A stretch of DNA of 64,000 bases from Sphingopyxis microcysteis. GTDB lineage: Bacteria > Pseudomonadota > Alphaproteobacteria > Sphingomonadales > Sphingomonadaceae. A program made the position numbers and the translations under genes. The notes beneath the pieces were generated by a model. It saw only the letters and a program-made list of their open reading frames with translations. It was not told the DNA's origin and ran no database searches. The stretch's first letter is position 1; each line of letters starts with the position of its first letter. The stretch is from NCBI RefSeq assembly GCF_012274265.1, contig NZ_JAANYY010000004.1, positions 248,001-312,000 on the forward strand, given 5' to 3'. This document shows, in pieces, positions 218-10,299 of the stretch.

Positions 218-1039
218 GTGAAGCGTGTCATGCTGACGGCCGCGGGCCTGTTACTGAGCGCCGGTACCGCGCAGGCCGCGACCTGCGACGACACTTTTGT
301 CAAAAAGGGCAATCCGGTGACCGGTCTGCGCTTTGTTGCGACCACTACCGTGCCGAACATGAGCATGCGGAGCGCGATCGGACAGCTCAACGGCATCGTC
401 GCGGCAAAAGGCTATGCGATCCTGGCGGTCGAGCCCGACGGCGGCGCGATGCTGGTCGAACCGCCGCCCACCGGCAAGTCGCGCCCGTTCCCGATCGAGA
501 TTGCCGCTGACGGCGCGGGGACGGTGCGCATGGAGGCAAAGCTGCGCGCCGGAATGGGCATCCCCGATGCCGCGGCCAAGGCCGAAATGTGCGGCATCCT
601 GGCCCAGCTCAAAGGCGGCAAGGCGGGCGAAGCGCTCGCGGCGAAGGGGCTGGGCGCAACCAGTGCGCCCGGCGCTCCGGTTCGCATGAGCGTGCTGCGT
701 TTCTCGCAAGACATCACCGGGCAGGCGGACAAGAATAACGCCGCGGTGCAGAAACGCTATGAGGGGCGGCAGTTCACCCTTTATGGGCCGGTGTCCTATG
801 TGGGACCGGCGCGTGGCAGCTATCGCGTCGAATGGAAATTGCTGTCCAGCGTGCTGACCGACATTGTCCCGGGCCGCGCGTCGGCGGGTTTTTCGGTCAA
901 CTGCATCCTCGCCCCGGGGCAAAGTGTTTATGCGCTTCAGCTGAAACCCAACAAGCATGTCGAGCTGACGGGCACCTTCGACGAGCTCGATTATGGGCTG
1001 TCGTCGGTGTGGTTGAAGGATTGCCGGCCGGTGAAGTAA
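218..1039 (+). CDS. secreted protein with OB-fold-like C-terminal region
   Basis: A 273-aa protein of unknown function. The chosen start is GTG 218 because GGAAGGG lies about 8 bases upstream and the product then opens with a clean Sec signal peptide (VKRVMLTAAGLLLSAGTAQA, cut before ATC). An ATG at 182 in the same frame is possible but has no good ribosome site. The C-terminal third (around RQFTLYGPVSYVG to VELTGTFDEL) resembles the tRNA_anti-like OB-fold pattern seen in exported proteins; this is a pattern impression only. A terminator-like hairpin follows. Confidence 0.6.
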   Translation: MKRVMLTAAGLLLSAGTAQAATCDDTFVKKGNPVTGLRFVATTTVPNMSMRSAIGQLNGIVAAKGYAILAVEPDGGAMLVEPPPTGKSRPFPIEIAADGAGTVRMEAKLRAGMGIPDAAAKAEMCGILAQLKGGKAGEALAAKGLGATSAPGAPVRMSVLRFSQDITGQADKNNAAVQKRYEGRQFTLYGPVSYVGPARGSYRVEWKLLSSVLTDIVPGRASAGFSVNCILAPGQSVYALQLKPNKHVELTGTFDELDYGLSSVWLKDCRPVK

Positions 1040-1061
1040 ACGGATCGGAGCGGCGCGCCTA

Positions 1062-1090
1062 CCTCTTCCTCTGAAGAGGAGGGGCTTTTT
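1062..1090 (+). terminator. probable rho-independent terminator
   Basis: Perfect 7-bp stem CCTCTTC (1062-1068) with GAAGAGG (1073-1079) around a CTCT loop, then AGGGGC and five T residues at 1086-1090. It lies 22 bases after the stop of the secreted-protein gene. The gap between stem and T-run makes it imperfect. Confidence 0.5.
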
Positions 1091-1127
1091 GGCCTTTGGC
1101 GTCATGCAAGGCGCAGCTCTCAATTTC

Positions 1128-1205
1128 CGTCATCCCGGCGAAGGCCGGGATCTCTCCCTCCCGTACCAACGCACCGGCGAGATCCCGGCCTTCGCCGGGA
1201 TGACG
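1128..1205. repeat. extragenic palindrome, family A (CGTCATCCCGGC...), copy 1
   Basis: Two arms, CGTCATCCCGGCGAAGGCC at 1128 and its reverse complement ending at 1205, are separated by a variable centre. The same unit recurs at 11897, 12313, 22059, 23493 and 26200. It lies between convergent genes, and the transcript could form a long hairpin that acts as a bidirectional terminator. Confidence 0.9.
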
Positions 1206-1273
1206 ATTGTGATGAGATCGGGCTTCGCTCGCCAGCGTTCGTACAGAAGGCCGTCGTGTTGGCAGCGACCGCT

Positions 1274-2755
1274 TTACCGAAAAGGCGGCTCGTTGAACGC
1301 GCGCAATTTGCGGCTGTGGAGCTTGGCGCCCTCGTCGCGCATCGTTTCGCACGCGCGGATGCCGATCTGGAGATGCGCGGCGATCGCTTCTTCGTAGAAG
1401 CGGTTGGCCTGTCCGGGCAGCTTGAGTTCGCCGTGCAGCGGCTTGTCGCTGACGCAGAGCAGAGTGCCATAGGGCACGCGGAAGCGGTAGCCCTGCGCGG
1501 CGATCGTCGCCGATTCCATGTCGATACCGATCGCGCGCGACTGCGAGAAACGCAGCGCGCTGTCGGTGTAGCGCAGCTCCCAATTGCGGTCGTCGGTGGT
1601 GACTACGGTGCCGGTACGCATGCGTTTCTTGAGATCGGCGCCGCTGGTGCCCGAAACACTCTCGGCCGCGGTCGCGAGCGCGACCTGCACTTCGGCGATC
1701 GGCGGGATCGGGATTTCGGGCGGCAACACGCCGTCGAGGATATGATCATCGCGCAGATACGCGTGCGCGAGAACATAGTCACCAATACGCTGGCTGGGGC
1801 GGAGGCCGCCGCAATGGCCGATCATCAGCCACGCCTCGGGGCGGAGCACCGCCAGATGATCGCAGATCGTTTTCGCGTTCGACGGCCCGACGCCGATGTT
1901 GACGAGCGTGATGCCGCCACCATCGGGGGCGATGAGGTGATATGCGGGCATCTGGTGCCGCCGCCACGCGCTGTCGGCGACCAGCGCGCTGGCGTTGACG
2001 CCGGGCTGATCGACATACAGCCCCGCCGCGCCCGCGAGCGCGGTGTAGCGACCCTGCCCGACCTGCGACCCCGCCCAAGCGACGAACTCGTCGACATAGC
2101 GGTGATAGTTGGTGAACAGGATATAGCGCTGGAAATGCTCGGGCGCGGTGCCGGTGTAGTGGCGGAGGCGTGCGAGGCTGAAGTCGGTGCGCAGCGCGTC
2201 GAACAGCGCCAGCGGCTGCGACTTGGCCGGATCGGCGCCGAACAGGCCGTCGGCTAGCTCGTCGCCGATGTCGGCAAGCTCGGTGGTGGGGAAGTGGCGC
2301 GCGAGTTCGAGCGGCGTGACCCCGCCCATGTCCGACCCGTCGCTGGCGTCGAGCACATAGGGAAAGGGGATCTGCTGCCCGGTGCGCGTGACTTCCAGCG
2401 TGATGTCATAATGGCGCGCGAGCAGGCCGAGCTGGTCGCGCAGATAGTCGGCGAAGAGGTCGGGGCGCGTTACCGTGGTGACGAACTCGCCTGCGCGCTC
2501 GAACTGGCCAAAAGCCAGATTATGCCCCTTCTGCCCCTCGCGCTGTTCGCCGGTGGTGGTCAGGCGGATTGCGGGATAGTCGAACAGCCCGGTCGCGGCG
2601 GCGTCGGCGGGCGGCAGCGTGCGATCGCGGACATAGGCGGCGATGGCGGATTTAAGATTGGTGACCGAAGTGCGGAACCGGTCCTGCAGTTCGGCGATGA
2701 TGCCGTCGACGAGGGCGGTGGGATCGGTGGTTTCGTGCGATGCGTTGGACGTCAT
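1274..2755 (-). CDS. amn: AMP nucleosidase
   Basis: Hydrolyses AMP to adenine and ribose 5-phosphate, a cytoplasmic step of purine salvage and AMP control (EC 3.2.2.4). The 493-aa product from ATG 2755 matches the usual length (about 480-490). The N-terminal regulatory domain is followed by the nucleoside-phosphorylase fold, with segments such as MIGHCGGLRPSQRIGDYVLAHAYLRDDH and AIGIDMESATIAAQGYRFRVPYGTLLCVSDKPLHGELKLPGQ typical of Amn. A TTG at 2815 would add 20 unlikely residues. It stands alone between a family A repeat and a longer palindrome. Confidence 0.93.
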   Translation of the reverse strand: MTSNASHETTDPTALVDGIIAELQDRFRTSVTNLKSAIAAYVRDRTLPPADAAATGLFDYPAIRLTTTGEQREGQKGHNLAFGQFERAGEFVTTVTRPDLFADYLRDQLGLLARHYDITLEVTRTGQQIPFPYVLDASDGSDMGGVTPLELARHFPTTELADIGDELADGLFGADPAKSQPLALFDALRTDFSLARLRHYTGTAPEHFQRYILFTNYHRYVDEFVAWAGSQVGQGRYTALAGAAGLYVDQPGVNASALVADSAWRRHQMPAYHLIAPDGGGITLVNIGVGPSNAKTICDHLAVLRPEAWLMIGHCGGLRPSQRIGDYVLAHAYLRDDHILDGVLPPEIPIPPIAEVQVALATAAESVSGTSGADLKKRMRTGTVVTTDDRNWELRYTDSALRFSQSRAIGIDMESATIAAQGYRFRVPYGTLLCVSDKPLHGELKLPGQANRFYEEAIAAHLQIGIRACETMRDEGAKLHSRKLRAFNEPPFR

Positions 2756-2816
2756 CGCGACGCTGTTGCACGAAATTGTGACAAAAGGGAAGGGGGTGGG
2801 GTGATGCGTAATCAAG

Positions 2817-2924
2817 CCGTTCGTGCTGAGGAGGGACTGAGCGCGGGCGAAGGCCCGTCTCGAAGCACCTGGGTCCTTCGAGACGCCGCTTCGACTGCGC
2901 TCAGCGGCTCCTCAGGACGAACGG
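2817..2924. repeat. extragenic inverted repeat, family E
   Basis: CCGTTCGTGCTGAGGAG at the left is matched by CTCCTCAGGACGAACGG at the right, with further pairing inside (CTCGAAGCACCTGGGTCCTTCGAG). It fills the gap between the amn start and the peroxiredoxin stop, both on the minus strand. It belongs to the class of mobile-looking intergenic palindromes common in sphingomonads. Confidence 0.8.
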
Positions 2925-2930
2925 ACTTTG

Positions 2931-3413
2931 TTACAGCTGTTCGAGCATATGATCCGCGCTCGACACCTTGAATTCGCCCGGCGCCTCGACGTTAAGCTGT
3001 TCGACGACGCCGTCGTTGACGATCATCGAAAAACGCTGGCCGCGCTTGCCCATGCCGAACGCCTTGCCGTCCATGGTCAGGCCAACGGCTTCGGCGAAAT
3101 CGCCATTGCCGTCGGACAGCATGGTGACCGCATCGCCGGCTCCGGCACTCTTGCCCCACGCGCCCATCACGAACGCGTCGTTGACCGCGGTGCAGACGAT
3201 TTCATCGACGCCCTTTTCCTTCAGTTCGTCGGCCTTGTCGACGAAGCCGGGCAGATGCTTGGCCGAGCAGGTCGGGGTGAAGGCACCCGGAACCGAAAAC
3301 AGCGCGACCTTGCGGCCCTTGAAATAATCGGCGGTGCTGACCTGTTCGGGGCCGTTTTCGGTGACCTTTACAAAGGTGGCGTCGGGCAGCTTGTCGCCGG
3401 GCTGGATCGTCAT
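2931..3413 (-). CDS. peroxiredoxin (Prx5/AhpE-type redoxin)
   Basis: A 160-aa thiol peroxidase of the redoxin family that reduces hydroperoxides in the cytoplasm using thioredoxin or glutaredoxin. The peroxidatic motif PGAFTPTCSAKHLPGF is intact, and the catalytic arginine and C-terminal region (RGQRFSMIVNDGVVEQLNVE) are typical of the Prx5 subgroup. ATG 3413 gives the usual MTIQPGDKLPDATF start. The ATG three codons upstream (3422) is equally well placed behind AAGGA, so the true N terminus may be three residues longer. Confidence 0.9.
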   Translation of the reverse strand: MTIQPGDKLPDATFVKVTENGPEQVSTADYFKGRKVALFSVPGAFTPTCSAKHLPGFVDKADELKEKGVDEIVCTAVNDAFVMGAWGKSAGAGDAVTMLSDGNGDFAEAVGLTMDGKAFGMGKRGQRFSMIVNDGVVEQLNVEAPGEFKVSSADHMLEQL

Positions 3414-3554
3414 GGTCGGCATCCTTTTCCTTGAGGGGATTTCTGGTGGGCGAGACATTGGGTCGGGCAGCGCGGGAGTCAAGGTTGGTGAGCGAGAGGG
3501 CGGCGGATTTTGGCGACTGCCGGTTGTGAGCGGTAGCGGATATAGCGAAGAGCC

Positions 3555-3680
3555 AGCCCCTCCCCTTCAGGGGAGGGGCAACGAAGACTTGGCAGCTTGC
3601 TGCCTAGTCGTAGTGGGGTGGGGGCCAGCGGCCATGGACAAGGCCGCTGGCCCCCACCCGCTGCGACTAACGAACAAGTT
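3555..3680. repeat. extragenic repeat family B, left half (split by transposon)
   Basis: AGCCCCTCCCCTTCAGGGG followed by GCAGCTTGCTGCCTAGTCG and a GGGGTGGGG/CCCCACCC palindrome, as in the intact copies at 39011 and 27621. The missing right end (GTAAGTCTCGCTGCCCTCCCCTGAAGGGG...) is found at 7551-7584, on the far side of the transposon. The ancestral repeat was therefore interrupted by the insertion. Confidence 0.88.
3673..3680 (+). repeat. 8-bp target-site duplication, left copy
   Basis: AACAAGTT directly before the left end; identical bases lie at 7543-7550 directly after the right end. Joining the flanks through a single copy restores a family B repeat with the centre ACGAACAAGTTCGT. Confidence 0.85.
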
Positions 3681-3710
3681 CGGCATTATGTAGCAAACGC
3701 ACCAAGCTGC
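3679..3710 (+). repeat. left terminal inverted repeat of the transposon
   Basis: 32 bases that are the exact reverse complement of 7513-7544. The outer two bases (TT) overlap the target duplication. The perfect identity of the two ends argues that the element is intact. Confidence 0.92.
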
Positions 3711-3747
3711 TAGTGGGATTATCCGGCGCTTTGCGGGATAAGGCGGG

Positions 3748-4179
3748 ATGCACGAAAATGTTGTATCCGGCCTAGTGAGGCGGCGGCGTGAACTGACGCT
3801 AGAGGCTGACACGGTTCGCGCCCAGTATGAAGCCTTGCTTGCCGATGTTGCTGCGCTGGACCGCGCTATCCTGATATTCAGGCCGGAAGTGGACCTAGCC
3901 GATATTCCGCCGCTGAAATTCACCCGCAAGGCGCATTGGGCAAACAGGGGTGAGGTAACGCGCGCCATCATCGACACGCTGCGAACGGCTGGCGAGCCGC
4001 TACCGACCCCTGAATTGGTCACGCGGGTGCAAGAGGCGCGCTCGCTGCCAACCGATAGACAAAGCCTTAGGACTGCAACGACGCGCGCTAGGAAGGCGCT
4101 GGCGCGGCTACGCGATCAAGGGGTGATCGCCAGCCGCGAGACAGGCGGGCAGTATCTGGAGTGGGAGTTGGCGAGGTAA
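3748..4179 (+). CDS. transposon passenger: coiled-coil / winged-helix-like protein
   Basis: A 143-aa protein of unknown function, the first gene inside the left end. Residues about 5-45 are heptad-like and charged (VRRRRELTLEADTVRAQYEALLADVAALDRAI), suggesting a coiled coil. Residues about 65-140 look like a winged helix (RGEVTRAIIDTLRTAGEPLPTPELV, then TTRARKALARLRDQGVIASRETGGQYLEWEL). It could bind the element ends, regulate transposition, or act with the ParA-like ATPase that follows 73 bases later. The start ATG 3748 is the first in frame after the inverted repeat. Composition is closer to the host than that of the next gene. Confidence 0.6.
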   Translation: MHENVVSGLVRRRRELTLEADTVRAQYEALLADVAALDRAILIFRPEVDLADIPPLKFTRKAHWANRGEVTRAIIDTLRTAGEPLPTPELVTRVQEARSLPTDRQSLRTATTRARKALARLRDQGVIASRETGGQYLEWELAR

Positions 4180-4252
4180 GCGTTCGAAGTTATTTGTATC
4201 ATCAAAACCACGTGGCTATGCGGAGGCTTCACAACCGAGGGACTTTAAGAAA

Positions 4253-5263
4253 ATGCGGTACGCGATCTGGAATAACAAAGGCGGCGTCGGAAAGACCTTT
4301 GTGTCGTTTATCACAGCTTGCGAGTATGCGCGTCAGCATCCCGACAAGATGGTAATCATCGTCGATATGTGTCCGCAGGCGAACGTGAGCGAGGTTGTTC
4401 TGGGCGGTAATGGGAAAGGCTCTGCCCAACTGGACAAGCTTTTGGGTAACACGCCGCGAACCACCGTTGGTGGATATTTCGATGAACGCATTTCGTCTCC
4501 ACACAAGACCACTGGAAACGAAACGAGCTATCTGATCCCGGCGAGTAAGATTAACAGCAACCTCGACAGCAATGTCTATCTCATCGCTGGCGACCCTTCA
4601 CTTGAGATTCAGGCCGAAGCCATCAACCAGATTGCGGGCCAGACTCTGCCAAGCGATTCGTGGGCAAACGTGCACAAGTGGCTCCACGATCTGCTCAATG
4701 CGTTAGCTCGTAAGCATGAAAACGCCGTTTTCTTCATAGACTGCAACCCTAGCTTTTCTGCTTACACCGAACTTGCTGTTGTAGCCGCCAACAGGATCAT
4801 TGTACCCTGTACTGCGGACGGATCATCCGCTCGCGCGATAAGCAATATTGGGCAGTTGATCTATGGCATCGATGTGCCGTCCGCATACGCATCTGTCAGC
4901 TTTTCGAAGCGGGCATCAAACAGCAACTTAGCGTTACCGACGATCCACGCAATCCCGCTGAACCGGAGCACTCAGTACGAGCAAAAGGCATCTAAGGCCT
5001 TTTCGGCTATGTACAGTGAAATTAAAAAGCGGACCGATGGCCTAATGTCAAAGAAACAGGACGCTTTCAGCGCCAAAAAATCAGAACTGTTTCTCGATAT
5101 TCCCGACGCACATAGCGTTAGCGTGGTTACATCGCACCTTGGTTTGCCGCTTCACAAGATCAAGCTGGGCAAATACGATATTCACGACAAGGATACGCAA
5201 GTTCCTAAATCTTCCTTGGAGCGTTACAAGGAGGCGTTCGAAAAGCTTGTGCAGCGCTTGTAA
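4253..5263 (+). CDS. transposon passenger: ParA/MinD-like AAA ATPase
   Basis: A 336-aa P-loop ATPase of the ParA/SIMIBI type. The deviant Walker A KGGVGKT is at residues 9-15 with the signature lysine K9. Walker A' VIIVDMCPQAN follows at about 34-44, and a Walker B-like FFIDCNPSFS at about 160-169. Family members move or position DNA or protein cargo through ATP-dependent dimerisation. No ParB gene or parS cluster is visible nearby, so plasmid partition is unlikely. A role in transposition, target choice or element maintenance is inferred from its position. Its stop abuts the stop of the convergent transposase with no spacer. Composition is markedly AT-richer than the flanking chromosome. Confidence 0.82.
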   Translation: MRYAIWNNKGGVGKTFVSFITACEYARQHPDKMVIIVDMCPQANVSEVVLGGNGKGSAQLDKLLGNTPRTTVGGYFDERISSPHKTTGNETSYLIPASKINSNLDSNVYLIAGDPSLEIQAEAINQIAGQTLPSDSWANVHKWLHDLLNALARKHENAVFFIDCNPSFSAYTELAVVAANRIIVPCTADGSSARAISNIGQLIYGIDVPSAYASVSFSKRASNSNLALPTIHAIPLNRSTQYEQKASKAFSAMYSEIKKRTDGLMSKKQDAFSAKKSELFLDIPDAHSVSVVTSHLGLPLHKIKLGKYDIHDKDTQVPKSSLERYKEAFEKLVQRL

Positions 5264-6235
5264 TCAGCGCTGCCAATAGCCCTTCCAATCGCGGCTGGCA
5301 CGCGAAGCCATCGCAGCCGCCGTCACCATCGCAGCCTGATCGCCGTTCGAGACGCGGCGGTTATCTTCGCGCCACGATGCTTCGCGGGCATAGGCGCCGA
5401 TGTACGGGCCAGCGATATGATGGTGCGTACCGACTTCCATCCGGCGAAGGCGGCTGAAATAGCTTTCGGCCTGATTGGTGCAAACGCCCTTGTCGAAATA
5501 CTGGACCGAGTGATTGACGCGCTCGGTCATCCAACCGGCGTGAAGGGCATCCCAGCCCGTGCCTTCGTCGGCGTGGAGAACTGCCAGATTGGCAACATGA
5601 TCGCGAACGTAGGGAACGGCGTCGCCTTCGTTGGCGACAACAAAGGGAAGCGACTTGCCGCCGCGCTCGCGCATCACGACGACGCACTGACGCTTGCCCG
5701 AACGGTTGAACGCAAGGCGACGGTCCTTGCGGTCGTCCTTGAGGTTTTCCGGCTTCACGTAGCCACCAAAATACGCACCGTCGATTTCGACGATGCCGTC
5801 AAGCTGGCGACCCATTTGTTCGCGGGCCATTGCTTCGCGCAGCTTGTGGGTCAGCACGAAGGCGGTCTTGTACTGCACGTCCAGATCGCGGCTCAATTGC
5901 AGCGCGGCAACGCCCTTGGCGCCGTTGACGAAGATCGCAATGGCGGCGAGCAGATCGACGAACGAAAGCTTGCGGCTGGCAAAGATCGTGCCGCTGGTGA
6001 CGCTGAACTGGTGATGACAAGCGACGCACTTGAACTTGCGGCGCGTGGCAATGTCATAGGTTTCGACACAGCCGCAACGCGGGCAGACCGCTTCGCCGTC
6101 CGTTTCGGGCCAGCGCATTTCGCAAAACACCTTGTACGCGGCATCCTCGCCCATCGTGAACACCGTCTTGAGCGACAGCGTGCGCGCCTTTGCCGAGAGG
6201 AGAAAATGTTGGCCTTTGCGTTCCATTGTCATCAT
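5264..6235 (-). CDS. IS1595-family transposase
   Basis: A 323-aa DDE-type transposase. The N-terminal zinc ribbon has C51-x2-C54 and C70-x2-C73 (CPRC...CVAC), followed by a helix-turn-helix-like stretch (AALQLSRDLDVQYKTAFVLTHKLR). The catalytic core begins at EIDGAYFGG (D152), continues with HADEGTGWDAL (D223) and ends with TNQAESYFSRLRR (N254/E257), matching the DDE_Tnp_IS1595 pattern. The frame is intact, so the enzyme should be active. Start ATG 6235 was chosen; M4 (6226) is an alternative. It is transcribed divergently from the DUF6471-like gene, across a palindrome-rich 89-bp region. Confidence 0.93.
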   Translation of the reverse strand: MMTMERKGQHFLLSAKARTLSLKTVFTMGEDAAYKVFCEMRWPETDGEAVCPRCGCVETYDIATRRKFKCVACHHQFSVTSGTIFASRKLSFVDLLAAIAIFVNGAKGVAALQLSRDLDVQYKTAFVLTHKLREAMAREQMGRQLDGIVEIDGAYFGGYVKPENLKDDRKDRRLAFNRSGKRQCVVVMRERGGKSLPFVVANEGDAVPYVRDHVANLAVLHADEGTGWDALHAGWMTERVNHSVQYFDKGVCTNQAESYFSRLRRMEVGTHHHIAGPYIGAYAREASWREDNRRVSNGDQAAMVTAAAMASRASRDWKGYWQR

Positions 6236-6311
6236 ATCCGGTGATGTTAAGCACTGGATATGATGGTTTACACCACCATTGTCAATGGTCTATATCATCA
6301 TTTTTGATGAT
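6231..6311. promoter_or_regulatory. three inverted repeats between divergent transposase and DUF6471-like genes
   Basis: Perfect inverted repeats: ATCATATCC (6231-6239) with GGATATGAT (6256-6264), which covers the transposase start; ACCATTG-T-CAATGGT (6275-6289); and ATCATCA-TTTT-TGATGAT (6294-6311). The last ends just before the AAAGGA ribosome site of the small gene. The arrangement looks like an operator cluster controlling both directions. Confidence 0.6.
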
Positions 6312-6324
6312 AAAGGATGCGGAT

Positions 6325-6564
6325 ATGGCCAAGGCCGACCCTGCCACCGTTGAATACGAGACTCGCGCCAAAAATCTTCTTAAAGGGGAGTTGAAACGGC
6401 GGGGGATTACCTATGCACAGCTTGCGGATAAGCTGGCGTCGGTTGGCGTCACAGAGAACGAGCGTAACCTCAATAACAAGATTAGCCGGGGCGGCTTTTC
6501 AGCAGCGTTCATGCTGCAATGCTTAGAAGCGATTGGCTCAAAGTCTTTGCAATTAGCGGACTAG
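6325..6564 (+). CDS. transposon passenger: DUF6471-like small HTH protein
   Basis: A 79-aa, highly charged helical protein. Residues about 12-55 (ETRAKNLLKGELKRRGITYAQLADKLASVGV then NERNLNNKISRG) look like a helix-turn-helix of the kind seen in small repressors, and I match it to DUF6471. ATG 6325 is preceded by AAAGGA at 6312-6317; ATG 6307 in frame would add six residues. It could repress the divergent transposase promoter. Its last 46 bases overlap the start of the next gene in another frame. Confidence 0.7.
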   Translation: MAKADPATVEYETRAKNLLKGELKRRGITYAQLADKLASVGVTENERNLNNKISRGGFSAAFMLQCLEAIGSKSLQLAD

Positions 6565-7466
6565 CGATACTCACGCCTATTTTCTGGTTCGACTTTTCGC
6601 CGCGACCGCCGGATTTACCGACCTATAAGGCTAGCCAAGGCCCAGAACGCGATTATCGCGCTGGCGGCTCCAGATGCTCCCCAGAGGCTCTTGCGCGGCT
6701 CGGAGGGGCTGAGGCTCTTGCCGAGAAAGATCGCTGCGCCGAGGCAGCCGAAGAGCATCGCCTCAAGAGCGATGATCTGGTGCAGCAAACTAGGGCGGCG
6801 GACGCTGCCCGTGCTGGCGCGATCCTCGGCTACGACGTTGCCATGATGACGCTCGTTGGCGTGCTCTTGGGGCTGTTTACGGTCATCGCCGCTGGCCTCG
6901 CCGCCTACTATGCACGGCGAGCCTATCTCGAGGCCGAAAAGTCGCTGAAACATCAAGAGCGAGCGACGCGCCTCCAGTTGCAGCCATTTCTCTACTGGAA
7001 ATCGACATCCTGCGAGGCTGAGCAGCTTGCGGATGGCAAATGCTTTGTGGAGATACGGATCGATGTTCAAAATGCTGGACAAACACCCGCTCTGAATGTG
7101 CGCTGGAATGCTCAAATGTGCATCCGTGACGCAGGGGATCGGACCGTTAGGCCGATTCTGGGAGAGCCTGATGGAAGCTTGATAATACCGCCTCAGTCCA
7201 GTCGGCAAAGCGTCTTTGGCATTGTAATCCCCCAGTCCTACTGGGACGACGTCTTGAATTACAAAAAGGACATTTGCGTTGCGAGTCACATTATATTCGA
7301 TTCCCGGTGGGCCAAGGGAAAAACTTTGATTGAGTATCGGTGCTCCAGAGGAAACGCTATAGCCCAAGGTATGTTCTTCTACGACGAAGAGATCTCGGAT
7401 GTGGTTCAGCCGTCGTTCGACTTCGACGCTCCCAACGATAGCGGTCAAGGCGAGCCCGACGGTTAA
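6519..7466 (+). CDS. transposon passenger: two-TM protein of unknown function
   Basis: A 315-aa protein. TM1 is at about residues 8-24 (VFAISGLAILTPIFWF), followed by a roughly 80-residue charged segment with two cysteines. TM2 is at about 108-130 (AMMTLVGVLLGLFTVIAAGLAAYYA), then a basic helix and a soluble C-terminal domain (LQPFLYWKS, VQNAGQTPALNV). The start overlaps the DUF6471-like gene by 46 bases, which implies translational coupling. It is the last gene before the right end. I know no function; bacterial proteins of this architecture are usually uncharacterised accessory genes. Confidence 0.65.
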   Translation: MLRSDWLKVFAISGLAILTPIFWFDFSPRPPDLPTYKASQGPERDYRAGGSRCSPEALARLGGAEALAEKDRCAEAAEEHRLKSDDLVQQTRAADAARAGAILGYDVAMMTLVGVLLGLFTVIAAGLAAYYARRAYLEAEKSLKHQERATRLQLQPFLYWKSTSCEAEQLADGKCFVEIRIDVQNAGQTPALNVRWNAQMCIRDAGDRTVRPILGEPDGSLIIPPQSSRQSVFGIVIPQSYWDDVLNYKKDICVASHIIFDSRWAKGKTLIEYRCSRGNAIAQGMFFYDEEISDVVQPSFDFDAPNDSGQGEPDG

Positions 7467-7512
7467 AATCGAACGATTAATCACGCTCTACGCCCCTTGT
7501 CGGAGCGACAAT

Positions 7513-7544
7513 GCAGCTTGGTGCGTTTGCTACATAATGCCGAA
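7513..7544 (-). repeat. right terminal inverted repeat of the transposon
   Basis: Exact reverse complement of 3679-3710 over 32 bp. It is followed by the second AACAAGTT (7543-7550) and then by the resumed family B extragenic repeat. Confidence 0.92.
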
Positions 7545-7550
7545 CAAGTT

Positions 7551-7584
7551 CGTAAGTCTCGCTGCCCTCCCCTGAAGGGGAGGG
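7551..7584. repeat. extragenic repeat family B, right half
   Basis: CGTAAGTCTCGCTGCC then CCCTCCCCTGAAGGGGAGGG completes the repeat begun at 3555. Compare the intact copy at 39011, where GCCAAGTCTCGCTGCC occupies this position. Confidence 0.85.
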
Positions 7585-7678
7585 CGTGTCTTTTCCGCTA
7601 CGTCCGCTCCCCACCCCAAACCAGACAACAAAACCAAAGATGCTGGACCACCCGGTCCCGCCGCGCCATGATGGGGCG

Positions 7679-8242
7679 ATGGACACAGACCCCATTTGGT
7701 TCACCGGCCAGCTGCTGCTTGCGCTGCCCGGCATCGGCGATCCCCGTTTCGAACATTCGGTGATTGCGATGATCAGCCATGACGACGAGGGCGCGATGGG
7801 GATCGGCATTTCCGATCCGATTTCGGGGATGACCGTCGGCGCGGTGCTCGATCAGCTGGACATCGCGCACGACGATCCGCTCGACCAGCCGGTGTTTCTG
7901 GGCGGCCCGGTCGAACCATCGCGCGGCTTTGTGCTGCACAGCCGGGATTGGGGCGGGCAGGAAGCGGTGCAGGTCAGCGATCGCTGGATGGTATCGAGTT
8001 CGCACGACATCTTGCGCGCGATCGGCGCGGGGCGCGGGCCTGCCCAATGGCTGGTCGCGCTGGGCTATGCCGGATGGTCGGCGGGGCAGTTGGAGGGCGA
8101 GATGGTGCGTCACGGTTGGCACGTCACCCCCGGCAGCGATGCGCTGTTGTTCGACACACCGCCCGCCGAGCGGTGGCAGGCGGCGTTTGCCGAAGCGGGC
8201 GTGGACGCTCGGTTGCTGACAACCGAAGGCGGCCGGGCATAG
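7679..8242 (+). CDS. YqgE/AlgH family protein
   Basis: A 187-aa protein of the YqgE/AlgH (DUF179) family, about the usual length. It carries the family features FTGQLLLALPGIGDPRFEHSVI, VFLGGPVE and LGYAGWSAGQLEGE. Its biochemical role is not settled; AlgH is linked to alginate regulation in pseudomonads. ATG 7679 was chosen because homologs start with a short leader before WFTGQLL; an in-frame ATG at 7640 is possible. It is the first host gene after the transposon. Confidence 0.88.
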   Translation: MDTDPIWFTGQLLLALPGIGDPRFEHSVIAMISHDDEGAMGIGISDPISGMTVGAVLDQLDIAHDDPLDQPVFLGGPVEPSRGFVLHSRDWGGQEAVQVSDRWMVSSSHDILRAIGAGRGPAQWLVALGYAGWSAGQLEGEMVRHGWHVTPGSDALLFDTPPAERWQAAFAEAGVDARLLTTEGGRA

Positions 8243-8293
8243 TCGTCATCGGCGCCGCGCCGAACGCGGCGCATGCACCCCAACCGCCGCGCT

Positions 8294-8569
8294 TCAATCG
8301 CGCCGCTGCATGATCCAGCTGAACGCCATCGCGTTGAAAATCGTGTAGAGCCCATAGAGCATCAGCGCGGTAAACCAGGCGCGGGTCGCAATCGCCATCG
8401 CGCCGACGAGCAGCAGGAATTCGAAGATATAGGTGATGTGCGGCCCCGCCTTGTCGGCGAGCGGCTTGACCATTTGCTGGATCAGCGGGTCGTCGCTTTC
8501 CATGAAGGCGCGGTGCATCGCGAAATTGGCGATACCGGCACAGAAAATAGCGATGAGGGCTATAACCAT
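8294..8569 (-). CDS. small integral membrane protein, unknown
   Basis: 91 aa with three likely TM segments: MVIALIAIFCAGIANFAMH, ITYIFEFLLLVGAMAIATRAW and FTALMLYGLYTIFNAMAFSW. A cytosolic or periplasmic loop lies between the first two. It is convergent with yqgE and divergent from the DUF481 gene. The function is unknown, but composition and codon use are those of a real gene. Confidence 0.6.
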   Translation of the reverse strand: MVIALIAIFCAGIANFAMHRAFMESDDPLIQQMVKPLADKAGPHITYIFEFLLLVGAMAIATRAWFTALMLYGLYTIFNAMAFSWIMQRRD

Positions 8570-8668
8570 AGGTTCGCAAATGGGGGAGGCGGGGTGGAAA
8601 TGCCAGCCTCTTTCGGGTTATAGCCGCGCCTCGCCCGCACTTTCGTTCCCCCAGGAAGGACGTCATCG

Positions 8669-9844
8669 GTGATCGCTCTCCCCCGTCCGGCCGTGCTTTG
8701 CCTGTCGTTCGCCCTCGCGGTGCCGCCCGCGTCCGCCGCGCAGGAACCGGCAAACCCGCCGCAGCCCAATCCCGCGCTCGCCGATCCGGTGCTGGCCAAC
8801 CCGATCCCGACCGCGCTGGTGCCGCTCGATCCGCCACTGCCCGATGCGGTCCGCGCGATGATCGACGCCGCCTTTGCCAGCGGCGAGACGCAGGCGGTCG
8901 AAGCGGTCGCGCGCTTTGCGCGGCAGACCCATCCCGCCAATGTCGGCGAAATCGACGCATTGCTCGCCTATTATCGCAGCGGCAATCCGCCGCCGCCCGA
9001 TCCGATCGGCCAAATATTGGCCGCCGCGATGGCGAGCGGTCGCGACGCCGATGTCGAGGCGGTCGGGCAGCTGGCGAAGAATACGCGGCCCGCCGATGCG
9101 GATGACATCGAGACGCGGCTGGCCGCCTATCGCGCCGAACGCCAGCGATTGAAGGACGAGGCGGCGGCGGCGGCGCGCGCCAAGCTGGCGGCGGCGCGTT
9201 TCTGGCAAAACTGGAAGGGCGAGGGGCAGATCGGTGCGTCGCAGAGCAGCGGCAACACCAAATCGGCGGGGCTGAGCGCCGGGATCGCGCTGGCGCGGCA
9301 GGGGATCGACTGGACCCACAAGCTGCGGGCGCAGGCCGATTATCAGCGCACCAACGGCCGCACCTCGGTCGAACGCTATGTTGCCGAGCTGGAACCGCAG
9401 CACCGGATCGACGACCGCAGCTTCGCCTTTGGTCTGGCGCGGTGGGAGCATGACCGGATCCTGGGTTATGACACGCGCTGGAACCTGTCGGGGGGATTGG
9501 GGTACAAGCTGCTCGACAAGCCGAAGCTGTCGCTCAGCCTGAAGGGCGGCCCGGCGTTCCGCCATACGCAGTTCGTCAAGGGCGGGAAGGACACCGAATT
9601 GACCGCGCTCGCGGGCGTTGATTTCGGCTGGCAGATTTCACCGACGCTGCGGCTGACCCAGGTGGCCTCGACGATAATCGGCGAAGCAAATAGTTCGACC
9701 AGCTCGCTGACCGCGCTCAACGCCAAGCTGACCGGCGCGCTGTCGGCGCGCGTCGCCTATTCGGCGCAGATCGACACCAGCCCGCCGCCGGGGATCGAAA
9801 GCGTCGACACCCAGACGCGCTTCACTTTGGTGTACGGCTTTTAA
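8669..9844 (+). CDS. DUF481 outer-membrane barrel protein with N-terminal repeats
   Basis: A 391-aa exported protein. GTG 8669 sits behind AGGAAGGA. The signal peptide LCLSFALAVPPASA is cut before AQEPA. Residues about 50-155 contain two tandem copies of a roughly 50-residue unit (PDAVRAMIDAAFASGETQAVEAVARFARQTHPANVGEIDALLAYY and PIGQILAAAMASGRDADVEAVGQLAKNTRPADADDIETRLAAY). A charged helix follows, then the DUF481 beta-barrel (GEGQIGASQSSGNTKSAGLSAGIAL to TQTRFTLVYGF, with an aromatic last residue as in outer-membrane proteins). The repeat domain is an extra part compared with YdiY-type proteins. Confidence 0.85.
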   Translation: MIALPRPAVLCLSFALAVPPASAAQEPANPPQPNPALADPVLANPIPTALVPLDPPLPDAVRAMIDAAFASGETQAVEAVARFARQTHPANVGEIDALLAYYRSGNPPPPDPIGQILAAAMASGRDADVEAVGQLAKNTRPADADDIETRLAAYRAERQRLKDEAAAAARAKLAAARFWQNWKGEGQIGASQSSGNTKSAGLSAGIALARQGIDWTHKLRAQADYQRTNGRTSVERYVAELEPQHRIDDRSFAFGLARWEHDRILGYDTRWNLSGGLGYKLLDKPKLSLSLKGGPAFRHTQFVKGGKDTELTALAGVDFGWQISPTLRLTQVASTIIGEANSSTSSLTALNAKLTGALSARVAYSAQIDTSPPPGIESVDTQTRFTLVYGF

Positions 9845-10299
9845 TCGAAGGCTTCGGCGCCGCCGATTTCGCGTCCTTCCGCGAGCAGTCCGGTACCGGG
9901 GACATGGTTGAATTCGATGCGGATGCCGTCGGGATCCTCGAACAGTATCGAATAATAGCCGGGCGCCCACGGCTCTTCCTGCGGAGCGTGAACGATCTGG
10001 ATGTCGGTCCGGTCTTTCAGAAACGCATGGAGGCGATCGACCGCAGCACGGTCGCGCATCCGGAAACAGGCGTGATGCAGCCCCGGCGCACCCTGGTCGA
10101 AGCGCTTGCCGACATTGTCGGGGCTCGGCGTGCGGATGCCGATCGCGGTGCGGCCGCCGACGCCATAGAGCATCGCATCGCTGTCGAGCACGCGCTTGAG
10201 CCCCAGATAGCCGATCATGTCGCGCCAGAATGCGGTCGAGCGCGCGAAGTCGCCCGCGGTCAGGATGACATGCGCGACCCCGTTGAGGTCGCCGCTCAT
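9841..10299 (-). CDS. VOC family (glyoxalase/dioxygenase-like) protein
   Basis: A 152-aa vicinal-oxygen-chelate fold protein with one pair of beta-alpha-beta-beta-beta modules: VAHVILTAGDFARSTAFWRDMIGYLG at the N terminus, LHHACFRMRDRAAVDRLHAFL in the middle and YSILFEDPDGIRIEFNHVPG at the end. Possible metal ligands are the histidine of VAHVIL and the glutamate of RIEFNH. The substrate is unknown. Its ATG overlaps the stop of the upstream peptidase gene by ATGA, so the two form an operon. Confidence 0.85.
   Translation of the reverse strand: MSGDLNGVAHVILTAGDFARSTAFWRDMIGYLGLKRVLDSDAMLYGVGGRTAIGIRTPSPDNVGKRFDQGAPGLHHACFRMRDRAAVDRLHAFLKDRTDIQIVHAPQEEPWAPGYYSILFEDPDGIRIEFNHVPGTGLLAEGREIGGAEAFD

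Follow-up and report, generated by a model that had tools for sequence, protein, structure and literature searches.

A small winged-helix protein as the likely target selector of an IS1595-family unit transposon from Sphingopyxis microcysteis

The window analyzed here is a stretch of 64,000 nucleotides from the genome of Sphingopyxis microcysteis (contig NZ_JAANYY010000004.1, positions 248,001 to 312,000); all coordinates below count from its first letter. It carries a mobile element of 3,862 bp (3681–7542), which is bounded by inverted ends that are perfect over 30 bp and flanked on both sides by the 8-bp duplication AACAAGTT. Five genes lie inside the element, and all five open reading frames (ORFs) are open. 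Comparison of 61 elements of this type indicates that the product of the first gene, orf1, likely selects the insertion site. The features of the locus are as follows.

3665–3680: left half of the palindromic target repeat, ending in AACAAGTT (3673–3680); from the repeat analysis
3681–3710, plus strand: left terminal inverted repeat, 30 bp; from the sequence
3748–4179, plus strand: orf1, 143 residues, predicted N-terminal helix (residues 2–44) and winged helix (residues 69–141), proposed target selector
4253–5263, plus strand: ParA-like ATPase, 336 residues, variable cargo (AAA_31, 1e-13)
5264–6226, minus strand: IS1595-family DDE transposase with zinc ribbon, from family profiles; start at 6226 or 6235
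6227–6324: gap between the divergent transposase and DUF6471 genes, with an inverted repeat at 6230–6265; putative regulatory role
6325–6564, plus strand: DUF6471 protein, 79 residues, helix-turn-helix (HTH)-like by eye, proposed repressor (PF20075, 1.2e-31)
6519–7466, plus strand: membrane protein, 315 residues, overlapping the DUF6471 gene; open reading frame, structure model poor
7513–7542, minus strand: right terminal inverted repeat, 30 bp; from the sequence
7543–7558: second copy of AACAAGTT (7543–7550) and right half of the palindromic target repeat

The transposase matched the DDE_Tnp_IS1595 profile (PF12762, 1.9e-36) and a zinc ribbon profile (PF12760, 2.9e-14); against NF033547 it scored 146.9 bits, with a cut-off of 75. 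Together with the terminal inverted repeats and the 8-bp target duplication, which is typical of the IS1595 family, these matches place the element in that family; the genes beyond transposition, carried in a variable cargo slot, are what characterizes the tIS members. The G+C content of the element is 55.7%, compared to 60–70% in segments wholly outside it, and its genome holds one full copy. The membrane protein had no family match in the profile scans, and its structure model was poor, with a mean predicted local distance difference test score (pLDDT) of 58.6. The families that the five proteins matched include no TnsABC- or TniQ-type protein. The idea that the element has a known defence system at its core was rejected, as PADLOC gave just two weak Cas12 matches, both to the transposase zinc ribbon.

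An earlier, sequence-only reading of this DNA had described a complete IS1595-family element of a distinct type, with an 8-bp direct repeat on both sides, a DDE transposase with zinc ribbon, four more intact genes and a composition unlike that of the host, inserted in a palindromic intergenic repeat; the ends, the duplication, the profile matches, the open frames and the G+C content all agree with this description. Some of its details needed correction. The perfect ends are 30 bp rather than 32 bp in length; the inverted match extends beyond the element (46 nt, 93% identity) because the target itself is palindromic. The term 'compound' does not apply, since there is one transposase gene, the repeated ends are only 30 bp and no flanking pair of insertion sequences (IS) is present.

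As that reading had proposed, the ends were searched for in related genomes. With up to two mismatches, the 24-nt end was found in 40 of 397 host-family genomes, its own included, whereas the reversed control pattern gave no match in the same 397 genomes. Searching named genomes with the transposase yielded 35 loci, from sphingomonads and other alphaproteobacterial records; the non-sphingomonad hosts include Sulfitobacter, Labrenzia, Hansschlegelia and Phenylobacterium. Four genomes of the host genus (G030, G031, G026 and G047) have elements identical to ones in Sphingopyxis records, which marks the host as a Sphingopyxis or a very close genus. Elements were delimited by their ends and the duplication, giving a first set of 45 distinct elements (54 before duplicates were removed). 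Loci without paired end and duplication were left uncounted; the drops are L066, L070, L071, L073, L074 (contig edge), L078, L080, L083, L085–L087, L111–L117, L119 and L120 in the first set, L138–L140 in the second and L220 in the third. New elements, with up to three mismatches in the ends, were taken from two further genera (17 of 149 and 17 of 94 genomes) and, at the level of the order, from 26 of 396; the ends in 3 of 14 genomes of a third, small genus were left unused. The second set started from 20 regions, 17 of which were paired; 6 of these were duplicates and 11 were new. With 5 elements in the third set, the total is 61. The duplication is exact in 43 of the 45 first-set elements and in 57 of all 61, the elements being partly selected on it.

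Where the parts were detected, the gene order is orf1, cargo slot, opposite-strand transposase, DUF6471 and membrane protein. The orf1 gene lies at the same end in all 45 first-set elements (phmmer detected 43 of them, while L075 and L081 were recognized from position and alignment), and its start is mostly 68–69 nt from the left end; the DUF6471 protein was detected in 42 of the 45 and the membrane protein in 30. The element is an IS1595-family unit transposon whose core comprises the identical inverted ends, the orf1, transposase and DUF6471 genes and, frequently, the membrane protein gene; one variable cargo slot is located between orf1 and the transposase. What had been taken for four passenger genes is mostly core; the ParA gene alone is private to the window copy among these 45 elements, which the scan covered. 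The sequence-only reading was to be refuted by a lack of the five-gene set in other genomes; this lack holds for the full five, found in no other of the 45 elements, but the core genes recur between the same ends elsewhere. Ten cargo proteins of other copies were scanned, and they matched KilA-N, the SocA/Panacea antitoxin domain (two proteins), an IrrE-like peptidase, a NYN domain, a nucleotidyltransferase (DUF6036) and, weakly and below the cut-off, GAF (one protein); three had no family. Judging from these families, the cargo tends towards small regulatory and toxin-antitoxin-type genes. Three shortened elements, L022 (1.9 kb), L105 (1.8 kb) and L137 (1.3 kb), have intact ends and exact duplications, and their transposase is broken or undetected; possibly, they moved in trans.

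The window element sits in the middle of a palindromic repeat between genes. The 12-mer CGAACAAGTTCG occurs exactly 29 times in the genome, two of these occurrences being the borders of the element; at up to one mismatch it gave 65 matches, compared to 13 for a reversed control. Of the 27 further exact copies, 15 were inspected, and 14 of these lie in the same repeat, uninterrupted; the element occupies just one copy of this repeat family in the genome. An uninterrupted repeat joined at a single AACAAGTT, which had been expected at empty sites, was thus found elsewhere in the same genome but not at the orthologous locus of the closest relative (L184); this spot has no element, but the strict empty-site test failed there because the repeat is different.

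Once the flanks were joined, the targets of the family proved to be recurrent. Among the 61 elements, 24 are inserted in comM (yifB), 16 at site A and 8 at site B, and 16 in glycosyltransferase sites, 13 of them in NfrB-like genes and 3 in a related gene. A palindromic repeat of the window type was hit by three elements, and two other intergenic repeats were recognized by eye; three elements lie at tRNA 3′ ends (L105 at Arg, L082 and L135 at Gln), two in a YadA-like gene (one by eye), and 11 in other or unplaced targets. Profile scans were run on representative halves of the target genes, other copies were assigned via tblastn, and L088, L022 and L057 were assigned by eye. The halves of the interrupted genes matched YifB/ComM (TIGR00368), glycosyltransferases of the NfrB group (NF011307 and, more weakly, NF008411 NfrB), a YadA-like adhesin (L063), a MobF/TrwC relaxase (L097) and a major facilitator superfamily (MFS) transporter (L104). 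NfrB is an adsorption factor of phage N4. In the window host, comM is uninterrupted.

Many of these sites are exact. The same 8 bp were used in 15 aligned insertions at comM site A, of which 10 face one way and 5 the opposite way, and the 7 aligned insertions at comM site B likewise share their 8 bp, with 2 and 5 in the two orientations; the third set and late analysis added one more insertion at each site. The comM site B insertions fall in the Walker B codons. In the five elements at glycosyltransferase site 1, the duplicated letters vary but the distance to the downstream conserved codons is constant, so the neighbouring sequence is probably the feature recognized there. Two further loci are of note at these genes. 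In the region G183:C11, about 489866–503301 (L149/L150), comM appears to be in two pieces near Walker B, which are ∼12.8 kb apart; another comM-targeting element is possibly responsible. At L079, a single genome holds two different elements of the family (1288–5350 and 5780–10063), which are separated by ∼430 bp and both lie in glycosyltransferase-like sequence.

The association between orf1 and the target is strong, although not absolute. When orf1, transposase and DUF6471 were compared in the 41 elements that have each of them (820 pairs, 85 of them same-target), the area under the receiver operating characteristic curve (AUC) for same-target pairs was 0.98 with orf1, 0.73 with the transposase and 0.66 with DUF6471. 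With ten more elements, the AUC of orf1 identity was 0.977 (55 elements, 1485 pairs, 162 same-target) and that of transposase identity was 0.70 (53 elements). For the AUC, L097, L104, L108 and the three tRNA elements were kept as single classes, and L063 and L088 formed one class despite their differing sites. Inside bins of similar transposase identity, the orf1 AUC ranged from 0.875 to 1.0; by part of the protein, it was 0.982 for residues 46–143 and 0.917 for residues 1–45. The nearest neighbour had the same target for 37 of 41 elements by orf1 and for 14 of 41 by transposase, and 1000 label shuffles gave a mean of 6.2 with maxima of 16 (orf1) and 15 (transposase). On quick trees of the eight multi-member classes, with single classes left out and the tRNA elements merged, the target label changed 8 times for orf1 (the minimum is 7) and 19 times for the transposase. 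Natural swaps point in the same direction. The transposases of L019 and L020 are 97% identical and their orf1 proteins 34%; one element sits in the repeat and the other in comM. Further swaps are L092/L093, L065/L094, L056/L057 and L088/L101. The orf1 of L022 has an N-terminus nearly that of the window copy and a different C-terminus, and this element sits in a different palindrome.

Sites were also predicted in newly found elements. A prediction was counted if the nearest orf1 belonged to a multi-member class and had an identity of 45% or more (9 elements, then 3); this limit was fixed at write-up, and L135, L137, L217 and L219 fell outside it. In the first round, the nearest orf1 gave the exact site in 8 of the 9 elements; in the second, it was right for L215 and L216 and wrong for L218. 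The ORF rule had not picked up the orf1 of L216, which tblastn located once the site was known, so this case was not blind. The totals for orf1 are 9 of 11 blind and 10 of 12 with L216, whereas the nearest transposase was right in 1 of 9 and 1 of 3, that is 2 of 12. For L219 (transposase 48% identical, orf1 31% identical to a tRNA-type orf1), the flank resembles the tRNA end of L105.

The structure of orf1 was predicted with a mean pLDDT of 86.5 and a predicted template modelling score (pTM) of 0.54; the Foldseek matches listed from PDB are mainly ArsR, Fur and MarR-type regulators and other winged helices. Solved structures searched by sequence gave weak matches only. In one genus, an orf1 profile, with up to 42 candidates scored per genome, matched in 12 of 94 genomes, 11 times at known elements and once as a weak partial match.

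The anatomy, the recurrent exact sites, the orf1–target association and the new-site predictions are all read from sequence. On these grounds, orf1 is likely a modular protein that selects the target of a one-protein DDE transposase within an IS1595 unit transposon. We infer DNA binding by orf1 and its contact with the transposase; in the simplest reading, the winged helix would bind the host site and the long helix would contact the transposase. By binding a specific host sequence, orf1 would bring in the transposase, which would then join the element to the target at a constant distance from the bound sequence, with a stagger of 8 bp, and exchange of orf1 between elements by recombination would re-aim the element. 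The window orf1 would aim at the centre of the palindromic intergenic repeat, and those of its relatives at the two comM sites, the NfrB-like glycosyltransferase sites or tRNA 3′ ends. More broadly, these elements probably represent a new class of protein-aimed transposons, in which a one-protein IS1595 DDE transposase is re-aimed by swapping a single small protein of the winged-helix type. The variants that occur in nature would be directed to the middle of a repeat palindrome, two conserved comM spots, several NfrB-like glycosyltransferase sites and tRNA 3′ ends; targeting of comM would then have evolved independently of TnsF.

Several observations weigh against orf1 as the selector. Insertions at glycosyltransferase site 2 coincide merely to about one codon, and L125 is inserted in the predicted gene but at another site. 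Outside comM lie 4 of the 20 elements with comM-A-type orf1 (L097, L104, L108 and L218), and in the L097, L104 and L108 genomes the Mg_chelatase profile matches comM without interruption; the orf1 of L104 is 97% identical to that of L103, while L103 sits in comM. No PDB match of the orf1 model reached an E value of 0.001 or better in Foldseek, and no fitting Pfam family was found, the weak matches being scattered and several of them to HTH families. Furthermore, elements were selected by their ends and the 8-bp duplication, so copies without the duplication were dropped. The unoccupied comM genes of the L097, L104 and L108 genomes have site letters resembling those of occupied genes; L108 and L218 appear decayed, with a shortened transposase match and an imperfect duplication. 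As an observation in its own right, L097 (G139, element 601–3950) carries its comM-A-type orf1 inside a MobF/TrwC conjugative relaxase gene, and speculatively this site is possibly a vehicle for conjugative spread.

It is improbable that the transposase chooses the target and orf1 follows by common descent. Transposase identity is weakly predictive in both AUC tests, and its 14 agreeing neighbours are near the top of the shuffles; however, transposases 92–97% identical occupy different sites where orf1 differs, and those 66–70% identical share a site where orf1 is alike. On the swaps, the tree counts and the predictions, transposase-driven targeting was rejected. Since orf1 adjoins one flank and recombination between elements is evident, each site could also have been hit once in an ancestor and then inherited, with orf1 staying in place and the other genes being replaced by recombination, a history that we consider very unlikely. 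The same 8 bp are occupied in both orientations, for example by L056 and L058 with near-identical orf1, which largely contradicts vertical inheritance of old insertions, and the ends are present in merely 40 of the 397 family genomes. The membrane protein, located near the other flank, has an AUC of 0.52 (27 elements passing an ORF rule; orf1 on the same 27, 0.97), which argues against hitch-hiking with the flanks; such hitch-hiking of orf1 was rejected on the orientations and this control.

An element-encoded RNA guide that picks the site as in IS110/IS1111, with orf1 merely associated, would fit specific sites that are not the same in close relatives, a pattern reported for elements guided by seekRNA in the available part of the source (PMC11187229). 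However, the transposase is of the IS1595 DDE type, and the best ungapped match between an element and its own site had a mean of 10.1, compared to 10.0 for other-class sites (p = 0.14, 55 elements; gapped or wobble pairing would escape this test). As complementarity is no better for own than for foreign sites, there is very little chance that a guide RNA is at work. Both comM and nfrB-like genes are probably dispensable and the window copy sits between genes, which would suit an ordinary IS1595 element with random cargo, its clustering in comM reflecting survival of harmless insertions. Survival alone explains neither 16 insertions on the same 8 bp nor the link between site and orf1, and this account is extremely unlikely.

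The DUF6471 gene is divergent from the transposase gene, and its product is plausibly a repressor; we infer that it would act on the divergent transposase and DUF6471 promoters. The gap between the two genes is visibly conserved, with promoter-like and inverted-repeat sequences in many copies. In an inverted-repeat test, 7 of 8 arm bases are paired in the window copy, a value reached by 31% of shuffles; across 41 copies, 11 scored 8 of 8 (0.5–3% of shuffles) and 9 had no such repeat. Since this test is weak, the operator idea rests mainly on the visible conservation. The word DUF6471 is absent from the literature searched.

Multi-protein Tn7-like systems are known to choose their target through a dedicated protein; here, the same principle seems to operate with one DDE transposase and a 143-residue partner, and the natural swaps point to the residues involved (46–143). 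The steering of a simple transposase becomes directly testable, and a compact protein-aimed insertion system is suggested. In addition, an apparently unrelated element has converged on comM, Walker B codons included, and this bears on the idea of mobile elements attacking natural-transformation genes. The founding paper of the IS1595 family is reportedly by Siguier and colleagues. No literature linking this family to a target selector was found in our search, which left subscription papers and ISfinder outside.

IS1595-family elements with passenger genes have been described as tIS, for example MTnSag1/tISSag10 and tISCpe8, and within the accessible part of that source they share the IS1595-type DDE transposase, the terminal inverted repeats and the internal extra genes with the window element (PMC5704250). 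Different from the tIS elements, the window family combines a near-constant accessory gene set with a distinct cargo slot, and its exact targets within genes track orf1. Close relatives use different precise sites in IS110/IS1111 as well, as far as the consulted part of the source goes (PMC11187229); the window element has another transposase type, and no matching guide was found among ungapped matches. AbaR-type islands and other elements inactivate comM in Acinetobacter, lowering transformation, according to the part of the source available (PMC11472951). Interruption of comM is common to these islands and the window family, but the machinery is different and the hosts are sphingomonads and other Alphaproteobacteria. 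Another parallel in targeting is with the Tn7-like Tn6022, which has TnsF, and with Tsy, from which dedicated protein target selectors and insertion into comM are known; in the portion of the source at hand, TnsF depends on a conserved stretch of 10 bp within the Walker B codons, where the comM site B insertions are also located, and modular exchange of the selector is likewise described (PMC10293859). Unlike Tn6022 and Tsy, the window element has no TnsABC or TniQ match among its five proteins, its family occupies comM in both orientations, and orf1 is a predicted 143-residue winged-helix protein rather than a relative of tyrosine recombinases. Taken together, transposons with a protein target selector are a known class, within which the present architecture is new as far as the literature searched is concerned.

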